Shown: positions 5,796 to 33,264 of the stretch, piece by piece
How the letters are laid out: the number at the start of each line of letters is the position of its first letter
How positions within the stretch are numbered: position 1 is the stretch's first letter
Source of the DNA: a bacterium
GTDB taxonomy: Bacteria > UBP15 > UBA6099 > JAJRTR01
Assembly (NCBI GenBank): GCA_024278215.1
Contig: JAJRTR010000069.1
Span: 1-33,264, forward strand
Reading direction: 5' to 3'
DNA length: 33,264 nt
The notes under the pieces: generated by a model
What the model saw: the letters and a program-made list of their open reading frames with translations, nothing else
The model's database searches: none
Told to the model about the DNA's origin: nothing
Made by a program: the position numbers and the translations under genes

Positions 5796-5848
5796 ATAAA
5801 ATTGTTTGATGTTGTGGTAAATAAGAATAAAACATGGTGGTGAAACGT

Positions 5849-7246
5849 ATGATAGTTGGAAAATTCGGCGGCGGGGCGATGGCCTCGTCGAGTACGATCA
5901 AAGATGTTATGAAAATGATAAAACGCGACCCGGAAAGGAAGATAATCGTTGTTTCCGCGCCCGGCAGGAGGCCCGGGATCGATAACGATACAAAAGTGAC
6001 GGACCTGCTGATCAAGTGCGGGCAGGACAGGAACAAACCGGGCAAGTGCAAAAAAACGGCGTCGGAAATAGTGCGCCGCTATGAAGAGATCGCATGCGGG
6101 CTGGGCGTGAATCCCGAGCTTACCGACCGTTGCCGCGACGACCTGCGCGAGCGCATCGACTCGAAAGAATCCAACACGGCGAAGTATATGGACAAGCTGA
6201 AAGCGTTCGGCGAAGAATACTCGGCCCGGCTGCTCGCGGCTGCGCTGGATGTCGGCGGCGTGCCGGCGAAGTTTGTCTCGCCCGCAGAGGCGGGGATGAC
6301 GGTTACGGATAATTTCGGCGACACTGAACTTGACCCCGCGTCATATAAAAGGATAGGTGCGAAACTGTCGAAACCGAAAAAAGTCATAGTTTTCCCCGGC
6401 TTCTATGGGATGACGAAAGACGGCGCCGCGGCTACATTCGCGCGCGGCGGCTCGGACATCACGGGCGCGATACTCGCGGCGGCGGTGGGTGCGAAAATCT
6501 ATGAGAATTTTACCGATGTTCCCGGCATTTTCTGCACTGCGCCCGATCTCCTGATCGGTGTAAAACCCAGGAAAATCCACCGTCTCAGTTTCGACGAACT
6601 CCGCGAACTGTCTTATTCCGGTTTCAATGTTTTCCACCACGAGGCGATGCTGCCGGTGATGGAACTGGACAGGCCCGTGCCGATACATGTGCGGGATTAC
6701 AGGCTGCCGAAAACAAGAGGCACGCTGATCGTCGGCGGCAGAAAATATATGAAGGGCAAAATAATAGGAATAGCGGCGGAAAAAGGCTTCATATCCTATA
6801 CCATCACCAAAAGATTGATGAACAGGGAACTGGGATTCGGACGCAGGCTGTTCCAGATAATAGAGGATAAGGGCATATCGTACGAGCATTCGCCGTCTGG
6901 CATCGACAGTATTTCCGTGATAATAAAGAAGGACGACGACTTCACGACCGCGCTGAAAAAGGAACTGGGCGACGCCATGGAGAAGCAACTTGGCGGGTGT
7001 GTGAAGATAGAGGATAACCTCGCGATGCTGGCGATAGTCGGGCTGGGTATGAAAGAAAGTGTGGGAATCGCCGCGCGTGCTTTCGGCGCTATAGCCGACG
7101 CGGGAGTCAATATCGAAATGATTTCACAGGGCGCTTCCGAACTGAGCATATTCATCGGTGTCAAAGAAAAAGACACGCGCAAGGCGGTCACCGCGCTGTA
7201 CAACAGGCTGGTGCGAAGCACACCGCGGACGCCATACTTGAGTTGA
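5849..7246 (+). CDS. lysC: Aspartate kinase
   Basis: Aspartate kinase phosphorylates aspartate to 4-phospho-aspartate, the entry step to lysine, threonine, methionine and diaminopimelate. The 465-residue protein has an amino-acid-kinase domain (about 1-290) opening with IVGKFGGG, the K-F-G-G nucleotide/substrate loop. It also has FARGGSDITGA (about 197-207) and FTDVPGIFCTAP. Two ACT regions form the C-terminus (about 305-375 and 388-455), the second with NIEMISQGASELSIFIGV. ACT domains normally bind the feedback amino acid. The ATG at 5849 is preferred over 5834 because GGTGG lies just upstream of it and because the family begins M-x-V-x-KFGG. No homoserine dehydrogenase domain is present, so it is monofunctional. 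No other pathway gene is adjacent. Confidence 0.93.
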   Translation: MIVGKFGGGAMASSSTIKDVMKMIKRDPERKIIVVSAPGRRPGIDNDTKVTDLLIKCGQDRNKPGKCKKTASEIVRRYEEIACGLGVNPELTDRCRDDLRERIDSKESNTAKYMDKLKAFGEEYSARLLAAALDVGGVPAKFVSPAEAGMTVTDNFGDTELDPASYKRIGAKLSKPKKVIVFPGFYGMTKDGAAATFARGGSDITGAILAAAVGAKIYENFTDVPGIFCTAPDLLIGVKPRKIHRLSFDELRELSYSGFNVFHHEAMLPVMELDRPVPIHVRDYRLPKTRGTLIVGGRKYMKGKIIGIAAEKGFISYTITKRLMNRELGFGRRLFQIIEDKGISYEHSPSGIDSISVIIKKDDDFTTALKKELGDAMEKQLGGCVKIEDNLAMLAIVGLGMKESVGIAARAFGAIADAGVNIEMISQGASELSIFIGVKEKDTRKAVTALYNRLVRSTPRTPYLS

Positions 7247-7402: not shown

Positions 7403-9838
7403 ATGAAATTGAGACATTTCGGGCTGGTTGTGTTTCTGGCGTTTGTGATGGTAACTGCCGGAGGATGTACGGGAGGCCCCAAAACCCCGCCGAAGGATTT
7501 CTTCGTAACGACAATTTCCGTAACGACTCTGTCGACCGGAGAGACGACATCGATTTTCGGGAAAGGCTTCGGCTTGCAGAGAGGCACGGTGCTGGTAGGC
7601 GACAAGCCCGCGAAAATCATAAAGTGGAAAGATAAAGTTATCCGCATCGAGGCACCCGCGGCGCAGGTGGAAAGAAACAAGGTGGAAGTCAAGTTGCCCA
7701 CCGGCGAACAGAAATATGCGGGCATGATCGCGATCAGGCCCCGGGTTAACGACAAGCTTCTCGACTGGGTTTCAGATCCTCTGAAAAGAATCGACGGTTC
7801 AAAGATGGAACCGCTGCTGATGGTGTTTAAACCGGTAGGGCCGCCGGTGAGTGGTCTTTTCGATTACGACGCACCGATCCCCAAGACCGACAAGGACCTC
7901 ATCAATTCCATCGAAAGAGCGTGTGTGCAGGGTGTCCAGGTGATACAGTTGCATTACCCCAGCAATCTATCGACAGGCGAAGAAGACTATGCGGACACCT
8001 CGATGGATAATATAAGGAAAATAACGAATGAAGTGCGAAAAGTCTGCCCGCAGGCTCTTATCAACATCGACGATACCGATATGCCGGACGGCAACAGGAT
8101 GCTTCTGCGTTTGATGACGGTCCCCTCGCTCGAGATTATTCCCAATGTTGGCAGGTTCGAGCCGCCGGCGGATATAAAAACCGATCTCAAACCCATAACG
8201 GAAGCATCGGCCCTGCGCCGGAGACTTACCTGGTCTACCGACTTTTTTCTGCACCCGATCCCTGTGGCTATGACAACCTGGCAGGCTGTCGACCTCAAGC
8301 AGATGGCGGAATTGCAGGGAGTGCGGTATCCGCCGCCGGTGAGCTTTTTGCTCAGCATGGCATACGACGATAAGGCTGTCGACAATAAGAAAACTTATGA
8401 TGATATCGTGGACTTTCTCCCGGCGGATTCCCGCATCATCGCGGCTGTGACTGAAAAGCATGTGAGTGAGATCATCGGTTATGCTGTTACAAAAGGCGAC
8501 CACGTAGCGTACGGCTACCAGTATGCACTGCACTGGCCCGGCGGAAGCGCAAATTATATCCCCGACAACTCCTTTGTCCTCGAGAAGATTATCCAGACGG
8601 CGGAGAGTATAGGCCGGCCTATCGCAACTCCCGCGCAGGCTCGCGAAATGCTCGGTTACATGGCCAGGCCGAGTGTCAACAATACAAAAATCAAGGCATT
8701 CACAAAAGTCAAACCTAAAAGGCTGCGCCTGAAAGGCAGGGGCTGGAAACGCGGCGCTGTCGCCGGCCCACCCTCCAACACCATCACCGCCATCGGCTCC
8801 GATTACGCACACAAAGAAATCTGGATCGCCACCGACTCCGGCACCTATTACACCGACGACAACACAAATTCCTTCGTCAAGGTCAAACTCAATATCCGCG
8901 GCGTGCGCAATGTGCCCGTCACAAAGATCGAACCCACGAGCAACGGCGCCGTGTGGATCGCAACAAAAGGATACGGCATTCTCAAAACCGTTGATCACGG
9001 CAATGCCGTCAACAGGTACACCGTCGAAAGGGGCGCGCTCCTGGGCGATGTCGTCACGAACCTGTACACTTACGGCAACGAAGTCTATACCTGCACTTTC
9101 GAAGAAAAAGATGACGGTTACGCCGGTACAGGTGTCGCCTACACAACTGATTCCGGAGCAAACTGGTTTGTGTGGACTTCAGACTACGGACTTCCGTTCA
9201 ACGATGTGCGAAGCGTATATGTGGAAGACGAGTGGGTATACATCGGATTCGGACCTTACGGCGGCGAGGGCGAAGCGACCGGAATGGCCATGTCGCCTGA
9301 TTTCGGCGACAACTGGACTATGGTCAAGGGTATCGACCAGCCCGTACTCGCCATCAGAGCCTTGCAGGACAACACAATAATCGTCGGCACAAAGGGCGGC
9401 GGCGCTTACACGGTCAACTATGACGGTACCCACGCCCGGCGTCTCAAATTCATTCCGCCCACAGCCACTGTAACGGACCTCGAAATCGACAACCGCGGCT
9501 GGCTCTGGCTTATCACCGACGGCGGCATTATCGTCACTGACGACAAAGGAAAATCACACCAGACATTCACTGTCACCGACGGCGTGGCGTCCGAAGCAGT
9601 CACCGGCGCTGTGTATATTCCCGGCAAAGATGTCTGGTTCTCGACAACGCCCGACAACAACGAACACGCGGGCGGCATGACCAGAATCATCGCTTCGGGC
9701 CGGAAAGAGCAGCCGAAAGCAGCGGCTCAGTCTCAAACAAAACCGGGTCCCAAAGCCGGCAACAAACCAGCGGCGGTCAACAAACCGAAACCACGCGCGA
9801 GAAACAAACCTTTACTCGGCCCGCGCGGCAAGCGCTGA
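7403..9838 (+). CDS. Lipoprotein with IPT/TIG-like, BKACE (DUF849)-like and beta-propeller domains
   Basis: The 811-residue protein has a lipoprotein signal with lipobox TAGGC (Cys22), so it should be anchored in a membrane facing the periplasm or outside. Residues about 33-112 resemble an IPT/TIG beta-sandwich (FGKGFGLQRGTVLVGD). Residues about 135-420 resemble the beta-keto acid cleavage enzyme TIM barrel, with ERACVQGVQVIQLHYPS, a CPQALINID strand, PPPVSFLLSM, and RPIATPAQAREMLG at the end. In BKACE enzymes a zinc is held by HxH and a later Glu. Here these align to Gln182-Leu-His184 and Gln373, so catalysis is doubtful. After a basic linker (about 430-455), residues about 456-765 form a propeller of repeated strands (AVWIATKGYGILKT, WLWLITDGGIIVTDD). 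The tail is Pro/Lys-rich. Codon use shifts at the linker. Domain names are from memory of motifs. Confidence 0.75.
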   Translation: MKLRHFGLVVFLAFVMVTAGGCTGGPKTPPKDFFVTTISVTTLSTGETTSIFGKGFGLQRGTVLVGDKPAKIIKWKDKVIRIEAPAAQVERNKVEVKLPTGEQKYAGMIAIRPRVNDKLLDWVSDPLKRIDGSKMEPLLMVFKPVGPPVSGLFDYDAPIPKTDKDLINSIERACVQGVQVIQLHYPSNLSTGEEDYADTSMDNIRKITNEVRKVCPQALINIDDTDMPDGNRMLLRLMTVPSLEIIPNVGRFEPPADIKTDLKPITEASALRRRLTWSTDFFLHPIPVAMTTWQAVDLKQMAELQGVRYPPPVSFLLSMAYDDKAVDNKKTYDDIVDFLPADSRIIAAVTEKHVSEIIGYAVTKGDHVAYGYQYALHWPGGSANYIPDNSFVLEKIIQTAESIGRPIATPAQAREMLGYMARPSVNNTKIKAFTKVKPKRLRLKGRGWKRGAVAGPPSNTITAIGSDYAHKEIWIATDSGTYYTDDNTNSFVKVKLNIRGVRNVPVTKIEPTSNGAVWIATKGYGILKTVDHGNAVNRYTVERGALLGDVVTNLYTYGNEVYTCTFEEKDDGYAGTGVAYTTDSGANWFVWTSDYGLPFNDVRSVYVEDEWVYIGFGPYGGEGEATGMAMSPDFGDNWTMVKGIDQPVLAIRALQDNTIIVGTKGGGAYTVNYDGTHARRLKFIPPTATVTDLEIDNRGWLWLITDGGIIVTDDKGKSHQTFTVTDGVASEAVTGAVYIPGKDVWFSTTPDNNEHAGGMTRIIASGRKEQPKAAAQSQTKPGPKAGNKPAAVNKPKPRARNKPLLGPRGKR

Positions 9839-18026: not shown

Positions 18027-21000
18027 ATGAGATCCAAAATGTACATTGTAATAACGGCAATGATCGCAAACCTGGCGTTTGCGGCATATCTCGCGCAGGC
18101 CCAGAGTTTTCCGAGCGAGATCACCCTCCAGCAATCAAACGAAAACCGATACTTTCCGCTGCACATGGGCAAATACTGGAAATGGGACATTTCGGTTCCG
18201 AAGCAGGGGATAAGAAACGCTGTTTCGGAGGAAGCGGTGGTCAAAGACCTTGGCAACGTGTTCATCAACGGCACAAGGAACTTCAGGAAGGGCAAAATCG
18301 TCTCCGCCGTCGCAACTGTGTACAGGATGCAGAGCGGGTCGGTCTTCATGACTGAGCAGAAAACAGATAACATAGGCGGCACACCTTTGCATATCACGTA
18401 TAAAGAGCCATGCCTCGTGATGCCCGACAGGCCGGTGGCGGATATGGTATGGAGTTGCGAGACTGAGCGGAAGAATGCGGAAACCGGCGCGGATGAAACT
18501 GTGTCGGACAACTTCCTTGTAGAGTCGATAGGAGATGTTAAGACAAACTCCGGCCATTACAACGAGTGTGTGAAGATAAGACAGGACAGGACAATCGCCG
18601 GAGACGGCAATGAAAGCAAGGTCTTGTTCAATAAGTGGTACTGCAAGAAGATCGGCCTGACGAAGATCGAGCGTGACGGAGTGACAGTGTTGCAGCTTGT
18701 CGAGAGTAAGGATGTCGAGGTGGAGATACAGGAAGAAGCGCCCACGGAAACAACGCCTGACGCCGCCGCACCCGCGGAAACAACGCCCGCTGCTGAAGAG
18801 TCGAAAACTCTTTCTCTCGAGGAGCAGGCTGCGATTGCCGAATCACAGAATGTGCAGCCTGAAGCGAAGCCGCTTACAGAATCGACGCCTGCCTCCGAAG
18901 AAACCACTGCATCCGAAAAAGAGGAGCCCCGGACTGGTGATAAAAACACCTATGACATAGTGAACCTGCCTCCGTATCCCGACCCGGCGGTTCCTTCGAT
19001 AGGGATTATCGGCTGGAGCGCGGATCAGAAACGTGTCGCTTATCTCGAGGTGCTGAAAAGAGGCAATAATAAGCCCGTGCGCACCGCGCTGAAAATCGTC
19101 GAAGTCGCAAACAATGATGTTGTGTGGAACTATTCGAGGCGAATGTGCGGAAATAATATCAAAGGTTGCAGCGCGGGCGACATAGTGATAAAAAGCGATG
19201 ATGTGGATTATGCGAGAGTTATCCTGCTGGAAAACCGCGACGCACTCAGGAATTTCAACATAGGAAGTGATTCCGGCTATGTTTATGTGATCCCCGAAGG
19301 AGACGCCGCCGGAAGCGAAGATAAAGACAAACAAAGTTATTTCGCGCTGGTGCTGTCACCGTCGAAACAGAGTGTTTTCACTCTGCTGCCCGGCGGCGGA
19401 AAAGTGAGCGGCGATGAACTCGAACGCGGATGGCAATATGTTGCCGGCGGTTCGGGCGCCTGGGAAAAAGAAACTGTTACGGATGTTGCGCAAGCACCTG
19501 TCGCCGTCGAAAAGCAGCCTGAAGCTTCAGCAACTCCCACGGCGGCTGTGTCCGCCGCGCCGGAAGAAACTGCGCCAACGGAGACCCCTGAAACGGCTCC
19601 GGCGGCGGAACCCGAACTCAATAAATTGGTTAAACAATCGACACCCGCACCGGAACCGACACCCACGCGGGAATCTGAACCTCAAGCGTCTCGGTCGGAA
19701 ACGGTCCAGCCCACACCCGGGAAACCGCAGGCGGCGTCTGTAGCAGTAACGAAGCCCCCTGAAAAAACAGTGGCAGAAGAAAAGACGCAAGTCACGAAAC
19801 CCGAACAGAAGGAAACAGTAAATAAAAAGAAAGAACAGTCTGAAGAACAACCTGTGTCCGCGAAGATTGTTGTCGCCGGGTCCGAATCCATGGCGGCAAC
19901 GACAGTAGGCGAAGAAGAAAAAGTGCTGCCCGTGCCTCCTTCCGATGTAAGTAGCGGCTCGGAACCGGCGGAAGATATAAAACAGGAGAAAGAAAATATC
20001 GCAACGGAACCCGCGCACAAACCAAAGAATAAGCCTGTGTCCTCATCTGTCCCAGAACCGGGAAAGAAAAATGTACCATCCTGGCAACTGAATACCGTGT
20101 CCGGGGATGAAACCGCGAGCGCCGATACCGCGTCGTGGGTAAGCAGGATAAAAACAAACTCGGACAGCGTTCCTGAGAACACGCATATATCGGCAGCGGT
20201 TCCCGCGAGTGATGAGGTCGGGCCGGCGACTTCCGGCAGGGCGCCGGTTGTTGCTGAAAAGGGACAGCCTGCAACAAAAGATGTTACGCTGGAGAAAACT
20301 GAGAAAAAACCGCCACCGCCCGAAGCTGCCGCTGTCGAAAAGGAATCGGAAGCAGCGGGACAAAAACCTGAAACGGTTCCCGCGAAAGCAGCGAAAGCAG
20401 TTGCGAAAAAGAAACCGAAAGAAATAAAATGTCCGTCAGGCATGGCGCTGATTCCGGCCGGCGAGTTCATGATGGGTTGCAGTGCAGGAGATAAAAATTG
20501 CGAAAACAGCGAGAGGCCACCACACAGGGTGAAGATATCAAAGCAATTCTGCATGGATAAATATGAAGTTACACAGGCGAAATTTCAGGAAACAGCGGGG
20601 CGTAATCCTTCCAGCAAAAAAGAATGCGGCTCGGACTGCCCGGTAGAATCCGTAACGTGGAAAGAAGCGGCGGCATACTGTGAAAAAATCGGCGGCATAC
20701 TGCCCACGGAAGCCCAGTGGGAGTATGCTGCCAGGGCAGGAAGCGTAACGAGTTTTTACTGGGGCAACGAACCTGACAAATACGGCACCCGCGCATGGAG
20801 CTGGAATAATTCCATGAAAAGCCCGCATCGCGTGGGACTCAAGGTTCCCAACGAATTCGGTTTGTATGACACAGCCGGTAATGTGTGGGAATGGACAGGT
20901 GATTGTTACGCCGAGTACGACAAATCAGGAGCGGTCCGAGTGGATCCATCCTACGATAAGAAAAACTGCGACAACAGGGTTATCAGGGGCGGCTCCTGGG

Positions 21001-21110
21001 TCAATGGAGATTACAACTATTTCAGAGTGTCGAAACGCAACAGGGAAAAACAGGATGAGGGTACGAAATATATTGGATTCAGGTGCATCGCCGCGCCGGA
21101 AACCGAGTGA
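18027..21110 (+). CDS. Large exported protein with low-complexity linker and C-terminal FGE-sulfatase-type domain
   Basis: The 1027-residue protein has a Sec signal (about 1-26, ending AQAQS). An N-terminal domain (about 38-230) begins NRYFPLHMGKYWKWD, the YFPLxxGxxW start common in exported bacterial proteins. A Pro/Ala/Glu/Thr-rich stretch follows, then a small folded region (about 318-490, with GWSADQKRVAYLEV). A very long Ala/Pro/Glu/Lys-rich segment spans about 490-798. Residues about 799-1022 form an FGE-sulfatase fold: GMALIPAGEFMMGC, CMDKYEVTQAKF, LPTEAQWEYAARAG, GLYDTAGNVWEW, RGGSW and GFRC. In true formylglycine-generating enzymes the stretch after RGGS carries two active cysteines. 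Here it reads WVNGDYNYFR, so this is probably a binding or structural module. Two pairs of Cys near 821-846 may form disulfides. The protein probably spans the periplasm or is surface exposed. Confidence 0.8.
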   Translation: MRSKMYIVITAMIANLAFAAYLAQAQSFPSEITLQQSNENRYFPLHMGKYWKWDISVPKQGIRNAVSEEAVVKDLGNVFINGTRNFRKGKIVSAVATVYRMQSGSVFMTEQKTDNIGGTPLHITYKEPCLVMPDRPVADMVWSCETERKNAETGADETVSDNFLVESIGDVKTNSGHYNECVKIRQDRTIAGDGNESKVLFNKWYCKKIGLTKIERDGVTVLQLVESKDVEVEIQEEAPTETTPDAAAPAETTPAAEESKTLSLEEQAAIAESQNVQPEAKPLTESTPASEETTASEKEEPRTGDKNTYDIVNLPPYPDPAVPSIGIIGWSADQKRVAYLEVLKRGNNKPVRTALKIVEVANNDVVWNYSRRMCGNNIKGCSAGDIVIKSDDVDYARVILLENRDALRNFNIGSDSGYVYVIPEGDAAGSEDKDKQSYFALVLSPSKQSVFTLLPGGGKVSGDELERGWQYVAGGSGAWEKETVTDVAQAPVAVEKQPEASATPTAAVSAAPEETAPTETPETAPAAEPELNKLVKQSTPAPEPTPTRESEPQASRSETVQPTPGKPQAASVAVTKPPEKTVAEEKTQVTKPEQKETVNKKKEQSEEQPVSAKIVVAGSESMAATTVGEEEKVLPVPPSDVSSGSEPAEDIKQEKENIATEPAHKPKNKPVSSSVPEPGKKNVPSWQLNTVSGDETASADTASWVSRIKTNSDSVPENTHISAAVPASDEVGPATSGRAPVVAEKGQPATKDVTLEKTEKKPPPPEAAAVEKESEAAGQKPETVPAKAAKAVAKKKPKEIKCPSGMALIPAGEFMMGCSAGDKNCENSERPPHRVKISKQFCMDKYEVTQAKFQETAGRNPSSKKECGSDCPVESVTWKEAAAYCEKIGGILPTEAQWEYAARAGSVTSFYWGNEPDKYGTRAWSWNNSMKSPHRVGLKVPNEFGLYDTAGNVWEWTGDCYAEYDKSGAVRVDPSYDKKNCDNRVIRGGSWVNGDYNYFRVSKRNREKQDEGTKYIGFRCIAAPETE

Positions 21111-28759: not shown

Positions 28760-30856
28760 TCAGCGCCCTATGATCAGATCGCACTGTGAGTAAGCTTTCA
28801 GGAAATAGCCTTTCCATGGTGACATCTGTTCGGCTGCGGAATATGAGTCGCCGTCGTACTCATAGATTTTACCGCTGGTGATTCCTTCATCGACGGCCTG
28901 AGAGAGTGTGTATGTCTGTCCACTGCATGAGAATGTAATGTTGTCGCTCCAGGCGAGCGATGTTTCGTAGGGGTTGCCCACGAGGTTCCAGCCTTTGCGC
29001 AGCGGCACGCTGATTTGAGCGGCGACGGGAACACCCTGGATATCTATTTCGGTATTGTCGGCGACATGCACCCAGTAGCCGATGCCGGCCTGTATGTCGG
29101 CGCTTTCGGCAGGGTAGAATTTGCCGTCGAAGAACTGGAACACGTCGAGCAGAGGAAGGTCGTCGCCGAGTTGTTCAAGTGCGCTGGTGATCTCCGGTTC
29201 GAGCGGCACGCTGATAAGGCTCCAGCCTGGTTCGAGGGTTTTCGTCAGGGTCACCTGGCCCTCTTCGTTGTAGAGTTTTACGACTTCGATGCGGAAATCC
29301 GTTTCGCTTACGCCGCCTGCGGGCGCTATGTATGAATAGCTGCTCTGGGCCGACATGTCGACTCGGTCTCCATTGCTGATATTCACCAGTGTGAATGAGA
29401 ATCTGTCTGAAGGAATCGCTGAAGAGTCCCATGAGAGAGTGACGAGTTTGCCTGCTTCGGTGGTTTCCACCTTCATCGTCCATTCCTGCCTGTCGCCTGT
29501 TCTGCGGGCAAGGGGTCTTATGTCGGCGGAATAGTTACCCGGGTGTTTCGACCAGTTTTCCCTGGGGAAGTAGACGGAGGTGTATCTGGAGTGGAGAGTA
29601 GCCAGTGGCTCGGGGGAATCGCCCGGGTCGAATTCCACAGCAGATCGACCGGCGGAGCCGATGAAATTGTAGAGGTCGGCGGTATCGTCCGTGCGTGCGG
29701 AAATATTTATTTTGTAGTCCTCGACAGGCCTTACGATGCGAGCCATGGGTCTCGAGGCTGCTTTGTTGATGTCGAAAATAAGATCGGCGGATTCCCAGGC
29801 GTATACGAGGCAGCCCACCCCGGATTCCATTATGTCGAATTCGCCGCGTGGCACCCACGATTCAGTGCCGCTCGCGGCATCGTTGTCGTAGTTCCAGAAA
29901 GTCGAGTTGATGATTCCCGCGGAGCCTGCTTCTTCCATGCTGTATGTTGTCCCGCCTGATTCCACGGCGACGTTGCCCCATATATAATCCTCGTCATAAG
30001 GCGAGCTTATCTGGTTCCAGCCGGGTTTGATGGAAATTGTATAATCGGCGGTTGTTTCCGTCGGGTGCGCGTTGTACGAATAGTCGATGTCACTGTTGAA
30101 AGCTCTTATCCAGAACCCGTCGCCGGGCGCGAGTGATTCGGGTGAATAATATTTTTTCAGTTCCTGGGTTTCTTCGAGTTCGGGGTCCCATCTGAATATC
30201 TTAAAGTCGTTGGACGCGCCGAAAATCGTCAGCGGATCAGCCGGATCGGGTTGTGCGCTCATGCCCATAAAAATCCATTCGAGCTTCGGGATATTGCCGG
30301 AGATGGTTATCGAGTGGTCGATGTTGATTGCCACAGATCCGGTGGCAGTGTTGCCGCGCCCGTCCACTGCGACGATATACACGGAGTACGCGCCTGAATA
30401 GTCGGTTGTGTCGACCTGCGCGAAGGTGTGTCCGGCGACATTGCCTGAGCCGGAAGTGAGTGATTCGAGGAAATCCGGGTCGGAGTTGTCAGTGGGGGCG
30501 AGGTATATTGTCCACTGTGTGTCCGTCCGGTCATAGGCTGTGCCGATGACATCGAAAGTGCCTGATTGAGTGGAGAAAGCTATGGGGTTGGTGAGGTCGA
30601 CGCTGGGCGGCAGTTCGTCGATGACGCCCATGAATCCGTTGACGAGAGAGTAGGTGGTGGAAGTCAGCGCGTTGTTGTCCGCGGACTGGCCGATGGAAGA
30701 ATAGAGCGACATGTCGCCGGCTGTGCTTACACCGCCGCGCGAGTTTAGCGCGTCCATCATTATCTCGTAGTCTCCAGCCGTTTTCGGCACTGATGCCATT
30801 GCAAAGGCCGGGCACAGGATAAAACCCATTATAAATGTTATCAGCTTACGCATCAT
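28760..30856 (-). CDS. Exported surface protein with repeated GWN modules
   Basis: The protein has about 698 residues with a Sec signal (MMRKLITFIMGFILCPAFAMAS). A short N-terminal module ends TYSLVNGFMGVI. An Ig-like region follows (about 90-185, with TFDVIGTAYDRTDTQWTIYL). Three related modules come next, each beginning with a Gly-Trp core: PGWNQISSPYDED (about 280), PGWSLISVPLEPE (about 545) and KGWNLVGNPYETS (about 620), each followed by a GxGYW/GYFLKA-type strand. I prefer the ATG at 30856 because AAAGGTG lies about 6 nt before it; a GTG at 30865 would sit inside that site. No sorting signal or anchor was recognised at the C-terminus. It follows the tail-fibre-like gene on the same strand by 121 bp and may be co-transcribed. 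Confidence 0.75.
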   Translation of the reverse strand: MMRKLITFIMGFILCPAFAMASVPKTAGDYEIMMDALNSRGGVSTAGDMSLYSSIGQSADNNALTSTTYSLVNGFMGVIDELPPSVDLTNPIAFSTQSGTFDVIGTAYDRTDTQWTIYLAPTDNSDPDFLESLTSGSGNVAGHTFAQVDTTDYSGAYSVYIVAVDGRGNTATGSVAINIDHSITISGNIPKLEWIFMGMSAQPDPADPLTIFGASNDFKIFRWDPELEETQELKKYYSPESLAPGDGFWIRAFNSDIDYSYNAHPTETTADYTISIKPGWNQISSPYDEDYIWGNVAVESGGTTYSMEEAGSAGIINSTFWNYDNDAASGTESWVPRGEFDIMESGVGCLVYAWESADLIFDINKAASRPMARIVRPVEDYKINISARTDDTADLYNFIGSAGRSAVEFDPGDSPEPLATLHSRYTSVYFPRENWSKHPGNYSADIRPLARRTGDRQEWTMKVETTEAGKLVTLSWDSSAIPSDRFSFTLVNISNGDRVDMSAQSSYSYIAPAGGVSETDFRIEVVKLYNEEGQVTLTKTLEPGWSLISVPLEPEITSALEQLGDDLPLLDVFQFFDGKFYPAESADIQAGIGYWVHVADNTEIDIQGVPVAAQISVPLRKGWNLVGNPYETSLAWSDNITFSCSGQTYTLSQAVDEGITSGKIYEYDGDSYSAAEQMSPWKGYFLKAYSQCDLIIGR

Positions 30857-30977
30857 TTCAGACACCTTTTTGTCGCTTTCATTATTTACAATTCAAGTTC
30901 CGGGCCGTGGCACTGGAACGATAATATTTTATCCCCGGTTCGACAATAACAATTCCATAAATAACCGATACCTCAAA

Positions 30978-33264
30978 TTACTTCTCGCCGAGTTTCTTAA
31001 GCAGTTCGTCGATGAGCGCTTTTTGTTCGTCGAGCATTTTCTGCTGGTTGTCGATCTGTTCCTGCTGGGCCTGCATGGCGGCCATGATCATTCCGATGGA
31101 GTTGGTGGTTGAAATAGTCTTGCCTTCCTTGCCTGCCAGTATCTCGGGCGAATCTTCAGCAATGAGACCTATGTACTCCGTGCTGTCTGATTTCTTGTAT
31201 TTGAAGTTGACGATGTCGAGAGAATTAAGCGTTTTAAGCATCCTGCGGCGATCATCTCTTGTGAGCGATTTTATGTCTTTCTTGAGATAGCGCGAAGAAC
31301 AGACCGACATGTTGCCGCCGCTGTCCATTTTCGCGCCGCAGTCGGTGTTGATGTAATTGCCGGAGCCGTTGGTTTCAAGATAGAGCACATCCGCGCTGTT
31401 GCCGGCATTGTCTATCTGGAACGCACCGGCTCTGCCTGTTCCAAGCATTTTAATGTAAGCAGTCGTCGAGGCGTTAGACGTGTTCGTGCTTTCTATCAAC
31501 ACGGCCTCGGCTGTTCCCGCGCTACCGATATATACGGATGTTGTAGCCTGGGATGTATTGGTAGATTCGATCCATGCTGCGCTATCCGTTCCCGATTGGG
31601 ATACTTCGAGCATTGAAGCGGTATTATCGGCTCCGGATATAGTAGTGGGACCGGCGATACTAGCGGTTGCCGCCGCCACGCCGCTCGCCGAGACAAGATC
31701 ACCCGTCGCGGTAATAGTGCCGCTGGCAAATATGTTGCCCGCATTGTCAACGACGAACATGAGACTGCCGCCGCTGTTCATTTCCATGATGTTGCCGATG
31801 CCCATCTGCTGAGCGAAAATGACCGGCATGCCGTTTGAAACGTTCTTGTTTTCCGCGTATATCGCCATATATGCCGGGTTTTCCTGGTAAACATTGAACG
31901 TGTTTGTGGCCGCACTGTTATATATCCCGAGTGCGCCGTTCATCTCGTCGCCTGTGTCATAGACGATGCCATTGCCTGTGATCGTGCCGCTGGCAAACAG
32001 GTTGCCGCTGGAGTCGACGACGAACATGAGACTGCCGCCAGTGCCCATTTCCACGAGGTCGCCGGTACCCATCTGCTGAGCGAAAATGACCGGCATATTG
32101 CTGCTCGCGTTCGTGTTTTCAGCGTATATAGCCGAGTAAGTGGGGTCTGACTGGTAAACATTGAGCGTGTTTGTGGCGGCGTTATTCCATATCCCGAGGG
32201 CACCGTTCATCTCGTCGCCTGTGTCATAGACGATGCCATTGCCTGTGATCGTGCCGCTGGCAAACAGGTTGCCGCTGGAGTCGACGACGAACATGAGACT
32301 GCCGCCGGTGCCCATTTCCACGAGGTCGCCGGTGCCCATCTGCTGAGCGAAAATGACCGGCATATTGCTGCTCGCGTTCGTGTTTTCAGCGTATATGGCC
32401 GAGAATGTCGGGTCCGCCTGGTAAACATTGAGCGTGTTTGTGGCGGCGTTATTCCATATCCCGAGGGCACCGCTCATCTCGTCGCCGGTGTCATAGACAA
32501 TGCCATTTCCTGTGATCGTACCGCTGGCAAACAGGCTGCCGCTGGAGTCGACGACGAACATGAGACTGCCGCCGGTGCCCATTTCCACGAGGTCGCCGGT
32601 ACCCATCTGCTGAGCGAAAATGACCGGCATATTGCTGGATGCGTCCGAGTTTTCAGCGTATATGGCCGAGAATGTCGGGTCCGCCTGGTAAACATTGAGC
32701 GTGTTTGTGGCGGCGTTATTCCATATCCCGAGGGCACCGCTCATCTCGTCGCCGGTTGTCTGCACTCCGCTTAAGCCCGTAAGCCCCGAGCCGTCTCCGG
32801 TGAAGACTGTGGCATTTACTGTACCGCTTGCATATACGTTGCCACTTGTGTCAACAACGAACTGCGGACTCGAACTCGACCAGAACCTGATGAAGTTACC
32901 ACTACTGTAGTTCTCAATATAAAGCGAATCGGTCGCCGTATCGGCATTGATCGTCAGTGAACCCGACATCGTGTCGCCGATCAACGCCACTTTCGAGTTG
33001 TCTGTCGCGCTGATGCCCGTAAGCTGCGAGCCGTCTCCGATGAAATATCCTGCATTGATAGAACCAGTGACATCGAGTCCGCCTGTGATTGCGACCGAGC
33101 CGCTGGCGCTTATCGCGTAGCCCGCGCCGTCGTTGTTTTCCACATAGAAAGTGTCTGTCGATGTATCAAAATAAATATTAAGCGGGCCGGTCATCGTGTC
33201 GCCTGTCGTCGCGACACCACCGCCCGCGCTGATGCCCGTGAGTTGCGAGCCGTCGCCGATAAAA
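30978..33264 (-). CDS. Tail-fibre-like repeat protein with C-terminal intramolecular chaperone (peptidase S74), 5' end outside window
   Basis: The frame is open to the window edge (FIGDGSQLTGIS... before the first Met at 33194), so the true start is missing. The visible part has 761 codons. It consists of modules that each start GD(T/E)M(S/T/N)GxL, at residues 1, 76, 151, 240, 329 and 418 counted from that Met. The last four are 89-residue near copies. Residues about 615-705 form the endosialidase-type chaperone, with CSSRYLKKDIKSL (Ser and Lys spaced as in the cleavage dyad), LDIVNFKYKK, YIGLIAEDSPEIL and a final coiled coil rich in Gln. Such domains drive trimer folding and then cut themselves off. 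The protein is probably a trimeric surface fibre. No other phage gene is present. Confidence 0.8.
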   Translation of the reverse strand, partial: FIGDGSQLTGISAGGGVATTGDTMTGPLNIYFDTSTDTFYVENNDGAGYAISASGSVAITGGLDVTGSINAGYFIGDGSQLTGISATDNSKVALIGDTMSGSLTINADTATDSLYIENYSSGNFIRFWSSSSPQFVVDTSGNVYASGTVNATVFTGDGSGLTGLSGVQTTGDEMSGALGIWNNAATNTLNVYQADPTFSAIYAENSDASSNMPVIFAQQMGTGDLVEMGTGGSLMFVVDSSGSLFASGTITGNGIVYDTGDEMSGALGIWNNAATNTLNVYQADPTFSAIYAENTNASSNMPVIFAQQMGTGDLVEMGTGGSLMFVVDSSGNLFASGTITGNGIVYDTGDEMNGALGIWNNAATNTLNVYQSDPTYSAIYAENTNASSNMPVIFAQQMGTGDLVEMGTGGSLMFVVDSSGNLFASGTITGNGIVYDTGDEMNGALGIYNSAATNTFNVYQENPAYMAIYAENKNVSNGMPVIFAQQMGIGNIMEMNSGGSLMFVVDNAGNIFASGTITATGDLVSASGVAAATASIAGPTTISGADNTASMLEVSQSGTDSAAWIESTNTSQATTSVYIGSAGTAEAVLIESTNTSNASTTAYIKMLGTGRAGAFQIDNAGNSADVLYLETNGSGNYINTDCGAKMDSGGNMSVCSSRYLKKDIKSLTRDDRRRMLKTLNSLDIVNFKYKKSDSTEYIGLIAEDSPEILAGKEGKTISTTNSIGMIMAAMQAQQEQIDNQQKMLDEQKALIDELLKKLGEK
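31689..32756 (-). repeat. Four tandem 267-bp repeats within the fibre gene
   Basis: The repeat unit is 89 codons. Copies run approximately 32756-32490, 32489-32223, 32222-31956 and 31955-31689. The second and third are almost identical in DNA over long stretches, and the first is close. The fourth is diverged (GIYNSAATNTFNVYQENP and NSGGSLMF variants). The near identity at synonymous positions shows recent expansion or gene conversion, and such a region may be collapsed or expanded in assembly. Confidence 0.85.

Follow-up and report, generated by a model that had tools for sequence, protein, structure and literature searches.

A predicted exported lipoprotein with a BKACE-derived TIM barrel whose zinc and catalytic residues are replaced

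An 811-residue predicted lipoprotein encoded in the window, the whole 33,264-nucleotide stretch of bacterial DNA that was analyzed, contains a TIM barrel derived from the beta-keto acid cleavage enzyme (BKACE) family, placed between a TIG domain and a probable beta-propeller and altered at the zinc and catalytic positions. It is an unreported form of the known BKACE family and not a separate kind of system. It looks as if a metabolic enzyme was converted into an external protein that does something new; we consider it fairly probable that, in a poorly sampled lineage, a family of cytosolic enzymes dependent on zinc and CoA was the source either of a lipoprotein receptor that is exported or of an exported, metal-free enzyme whose active site is new. 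A more specific proposal, on which our judgment is evenly balanced, is that the mouth of the barrel between TIG domain and propeller was remodeled as a putative binding site. If true, a conserved exported BKACE with a changed pocket and no zinc ligands would be a clear case of metabolic-enzyme re-use outside the cytosol, and its three-member family lets the functional change be tested residue by residue.

BKACE enzymes are cytosolic single-domain proteins of about 270 to 350 amino acids. The window protein, in contrast, combines its barrel with a lipobox, a TIG domain, a propeller, and a basic tail, in that order from Cys22 onward (Table 1). The sequence TIG, barrel, propeller, proposed in an earlier note on this DNA, was recovered by Pfam (PF01833, PF05853, and PF07494). 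TIG domains and Reg_prop/BNR-type propellers, the domain types that flank the barrel, are those of exported bacterial proteins. Seven propeller blades are suggested by the strand pattern of a full-length AlphaFold2 model of moderate confidence in that region; this model was built from three own-family sequences only, and its barrel part was of poor quality. The basic tail occurs in the window protein and is absent from its orthologues.

Table 1. Positions in the window of the lipoprotein gene and its features
Feature	Window positions	Strand	Basis
Lipoprotein open reading frame, 811 aa	7403-9838	+	
Lipoprotein signal peptide, residues 1-22, lipobox ...TAGG-C22	7403-7468	+	PROSITE-type lipobox pattern
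IPT/TIG domain, residues 35-100	7505-7702	+	Pfam PF01833, E 5.8e-5, above cut-off
BKACE-derived TIM barrel, residues 132-420	7796-8662	+	Pfam PF05853, hhalign, AlphaFold2, Foldseek to Kce
Barrel region of the earlier note, residues 135-420	7805-8662	+	
Degenerate HxH zinc site, Q182-L183-H184	7946-7954	+	Alignment; R-L-F in orthologues
Family-specific D224 and D226 after strand 3	8072-8080	+	Invariant in 3 family members; position from model
V288, position of catalytic Glu143 of Kce (motif PExE)	8264-8266	+	E in 33/33 canonical BKACEs
Family-specific M290-T-x-W293-Q294 after strand 5	8270-8284	+	Alignment and model
Family-specific A320-Y-D-D323 after strand 6	8360-8371	+	Alignment and model
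Degenerate R...ED motif, A369, Q373, Y374	8507-8524	+	R, E, D in 33/33 canonical BKACEs; V, N, Y in orthologues
Probable seven-bladed beta-propeller, residues ~450-765	8750-9697	+	Reg_prop PF07494, E 4.7e-7; strand pattern of full-length model
Pro/Lys/Arg-rich basic tail, residues 766-811	9698-9835	+	14 K/R and 1 D/E over 46 residues

The earlier note had also called the protein a lipoprotein, and the signal agrees. The lipobox pattern fits residues 12 to 22 of the window protein, which starts MKLRHFGLVVFLAFVMVTAGGC and has its lipobox cysteine at Cys22, and residues 16 to 26 of the orthologue L002, so a lipoprotein signal is present in both lineages. Moreover, because the window genome encodes lipoprotein signal peptidase (Lsp) and Omp85 proteins, the host is most likely a diderm with the capacity for lipoprotein synthesis. 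Unlike Kce and other BKACEs, the window protein is thus predicted from its signal to be exported and lipid anchored, besides being fused to the TIG domain and propeller.

Descent of the barrel was evaluated by profile comparison. The Pfam BKACE profile (PF05853) matched residues 159 to 418 with 39.2 bits (E = 6.8e-10; cut-off, 24.8 bits), matched the domain alone with an E value of 6e-11, and gave 26.1 and 25.1 bits for the orthologues; at E values up to 10, BKACE was the sole Pfam match of the barrel region, with no hydrolase family among the results. When all three family members were combined in one profile, it aligned over residues 132 to 419 with 33 canonical BKACEs, which came from the window genome and from others (E = 1.8e-14; 18% identity over 265 columns). 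When the barrel block was isolated, profile-profile comparison by hhalign returned a probability of 98.6% and a score of 108.8, compared with at most 1.4% and 21.1 when the columns were shuffled (40 times) and 0.6% when the block was reversed. The BKACE pattern that the earlier note had seen at about residues 135 to 420 is therefore supported, and the domain end that it quoted, RPIATPAQAREMLG, is correct. When the domain profile was cut at its C-terminal end, searching the PDB with it gave no match.

The structure search proposed in the earlier note led to the same family. An AlphaFold2 model of the domain (pTM, 0.83; mean pLDDT, 78) has a barrel of eight beta strands alternating with helices, with several loops of moderate confidence (block means, 54 to 77); its alignment included 24 canonical BKACE sequences and the two orthologues, so it counts as supporting rather than independent evidence. 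In Foldseek searches of the PDB, the best 28 chains were all BKACE/DUF849 proteins or cis-epoxysuccinate hydrolase (E = 2.2e-12 to 7.7e-8), Kce was on top, and the next TIM barrels began at an E value of 2.2e-5. None of the contrary outcomes named in the earlier note (no TIM barrel, an unrelated best fold, or intact His/His/Glu ligands elsewhere in the domain) came about. Like Kce (PDB 2y7d to 2y7g), the window domain is a TIM barrel over its whole length; the C-terminal GRxIATPxxAREMLG signature is common to both, and identity in the best structural matches is 17 to 18%. cis-Epoxysuccinate hydrolase (PDB 5zmu and 5zmy), a member of the BKACE superfamily with another reaction, resembles the window barrel in fold and is a single-domain enzyme (314 residues in the PDB), whereas the window protein is multidomain. 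Profile comparison and modeled fold show that the barrel belongs by descent to the BKACE family (PF05853 superfamily).

Unlike Kce, the window barrel has replaced both its zinc ligands and Glu143, Arg226, and Asp231. We take His46, His48, Glu143, Arg226, Glu230, and Asp231 (Kce numbering) to be the zinc and catalytic positions; all six are invariant in 33 of 33 canonical BKACEs, including the two of the window genome, whose motifs are intact. The corresponding residues are Q182, H184, V288, A369, Q373, and Y374 in the window barrel and R, F, V, V, N, and Y in the 39%-identical orthologue. The HxH pair plus Glu230 that make up the zinc site therefore read Q182, H184, and Q373 in one case and R, F, and N in the other. 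The earlier note had placed the HxH position at Q182-L-H184 and the Glu-Asp position at Q373-Y374, and both assignments proved correct; V288 and A369 extend the loss beyond the residues that it listed. Most replacements differ between the two lineages (Q/R, H/F, Q/N, and A/V), which argues against sequencing error and for a lost constraint on zinc binding.

In BKACE15, a homotetramer that carries out acetyl-CoA-dependent beta-keto acid cleavage, substitution of Leu for the catalytic Glu171 abolishes activity (PMC11961710); we infer that this residue occupies the Kce Glu143 position, which is Val in the window protein. By this analogy and from its sequence, the window protein is very unlikely to cleave beta-keto acids by the known mechanism. 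The earlier description of the domain as noncatalytic thus holds, by family analogy, for BKACE chemistry only. Two ordinary BKACEs, their motifs intact, are encoded in the same genome, which therefore has other proteins for BKACE chemistry.

To determine how widely the architecture occurs, we searched a set of 386 genomes selected for relatedness. The complete combination of domains was present in the window genome (G000), G001, and G006 only, i.e., in three out of seven genomes from a single order, where it is conserved in a second family-level lineage. The window protein is 39 to 40% identical to the other two members, and two of the three known members are 96% identical. A second, partly overlapping set of 386 genomes yielded no further case, and a scan of 84,980 genomes with two strict peptide patterns returned only the two known orthologues. 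The search of genomes thus agrees with the earlier statement that no described protein is known to have this architecture, in that none was found outside the order; a search of open-access papers likewise turned up no BKACE barrel other than those of cytosolic enzymes with a single domain. BKACE matches occurred in 55 genomes of the first set, and, the three architecture genomes apart, canonical open frames mostly had 260 to 420 amino acids, with a maximum of 463. Weak long-frame matches from this survey, including one of 616 aa, proved not to be BKACEs; the two in G380 and G225 scored below 9 bits as canonical BKACEs and, by reading, resemble PdxJ in one case and alcohol dehydrogenase in the other. 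Because canonical BKACEs are much more widely distributed, the direction of change was probably from cytosolic enzyme to exported domain.

Neither viral contigs nor plasmids carried a relative of the window barrel. Separately, 57 viral contigs (L082 to L138; IMG/VR; up to 345 kb) encode BKACE-like proteins, and those that were aligned, some from contigs of 270 to 345 kb, keep the HxH and ED motifs; a shorter branch starts FTPTGTQ. These genes may have a metabolic role in large phages, or they may come from contaminating bacterial DNA.

The lipoprotein gene is under purifying selection: between the G001 and G006 copies, the barrel has a dN/dS of 0.084 and the propeller one of 0.069. Between the window protein and its orthologues, 40% of the barrel is conserved, compared to 46% of the TIG domain and 38% of the propeller. 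By sequence, the domain is maintained although its BKACE chemistry has very probably been lost.

TIM barrels have their active sites at the C-terminal strand ends. Residues common to the window protein and its orthologues (D224, D226, M290, T291, W293, Q294, A320, Y321, D322, D323, T350, K352, Y374, and W378) are placed by the model where strands 3, 5, 6, 7, and 8 have their C-terminal ends, or immediately beyond. As a group, the strand-end loops are conserved at 29 of 72 positions, compared to 114 of 287 for the whole barrel; given that they show no excess, a pocket at the barrel mouth is a suggestion from alignment and model. In the reading that we favor over a new enzyme and a passive scaffold, the mouth would have become, in the periplasm or on the cell surface, a site that binds a glycan or small molecule, the TIG domain would space it from the membrane, and the propeller might be a docking platform for a partner. 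Purifying selection on both barrel and propeller, a barrel as conserved as the TIG domain and propeller, and the D, W, Y, K, and Q residues kept near the five strand ends speak for such a binding site; the lack of statistical excess in the strand-end loops, the moderate confidence of several modeled loops, gene neighbors that differ between lineages, and a family of only three members speak against it.

The same acidic and aromatic residues near the barrel mouth could also serve a new enzymatic activity, e.g., that of a hydrolase of glycans or exported substrates in which D224, D226, D322, and D323 replace zinc. Several invariant acidic residues share the catalytic face of the TIM barrel with W293, W378, Y321, and K352, and the superfamily has already given rise to another reaction, that of cis-epoxysuccinate hydrolase. 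We regard this as an unlikely though serious alternative, as the barrel matched BKACE and no hydrolase family in Pfam, and three members cannot tell catalytic from binding residues. Slightly less plausible is that the barrel has a structural role only, as a passive spacer or brace for the TIG domain and propeller. Catalytic residues lost differently in each lineage and strand-end loops no more conserved than the remainder would fit such a spacer, yet the low dN/dS would not, and the loop motifs MTxWQA and MAYDDxAxD, which a spacer does not need, are kept.

A spurious match between BKACE and an unrelated or analogous TIM barrel is largely refuted and highly improbable: identity is only 18% and residues 225 to 305 align poorly with BKACE in single-sequence searches, but the Pfam, hhalign, and shuffle-controlled results are significant in two lineages, and 28 BKACE/DUF849/CESH chains precede other TIM barrels (with canonical BKACEs in the model's alignment). 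Least probable of all is that the ligand loss reflects an assembly or frameshift artifact or a decaying pseudogene, which the draft state of the genome (207 contigs) might suggest but which the orthologues already refute by sequence, as the 811-codon frame is intact, two more genomes share the architecture and the loss, and dN/dS is far below 1.

Gene context gives no function for the lipoprotein, because its neighbors differ between the lineages. An aspartate kinase gene (window 5834 to 7246, plus strand) ends 156 bases upstream of the lipoprotein gene, and in G001 the lipoprotein gene follows dapF and an LL-DAP-aminotransferase-like gene. A link to the DAP/lysine pathway was nevertheless judged weak, because in the other genome the pathway genes are on different contigs, with different genes after them, and the aspartate kinase adjacency is possibly a coincidence. 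A phosphonate-type periplasmic binding protein (PF12974; L014, 8199 to 9224, minus strand; a neighbor in L012/L003) adjoins the lipoprotein gene in G001 and G006. The window gene has no such neighbor, and the best match in the window's own genome is 26% identical and on another contig.

Elsewhere in the window, a 1,027-aa protein (18027 to 21110, plus strand) has a C-terminal FGE-sulfatase-type domain, its other ~800 residues being without a Pfam match. A 701-aa open reading frame (28760 to 30865, minus strand), without any Pfam match, adjoins the gene of a 738-aa protein (30978 to 33194, minus strand) that, on this bacterial contig, carries a Peptidase_S74 (endosialidase chaperone) domain near its C terminus.
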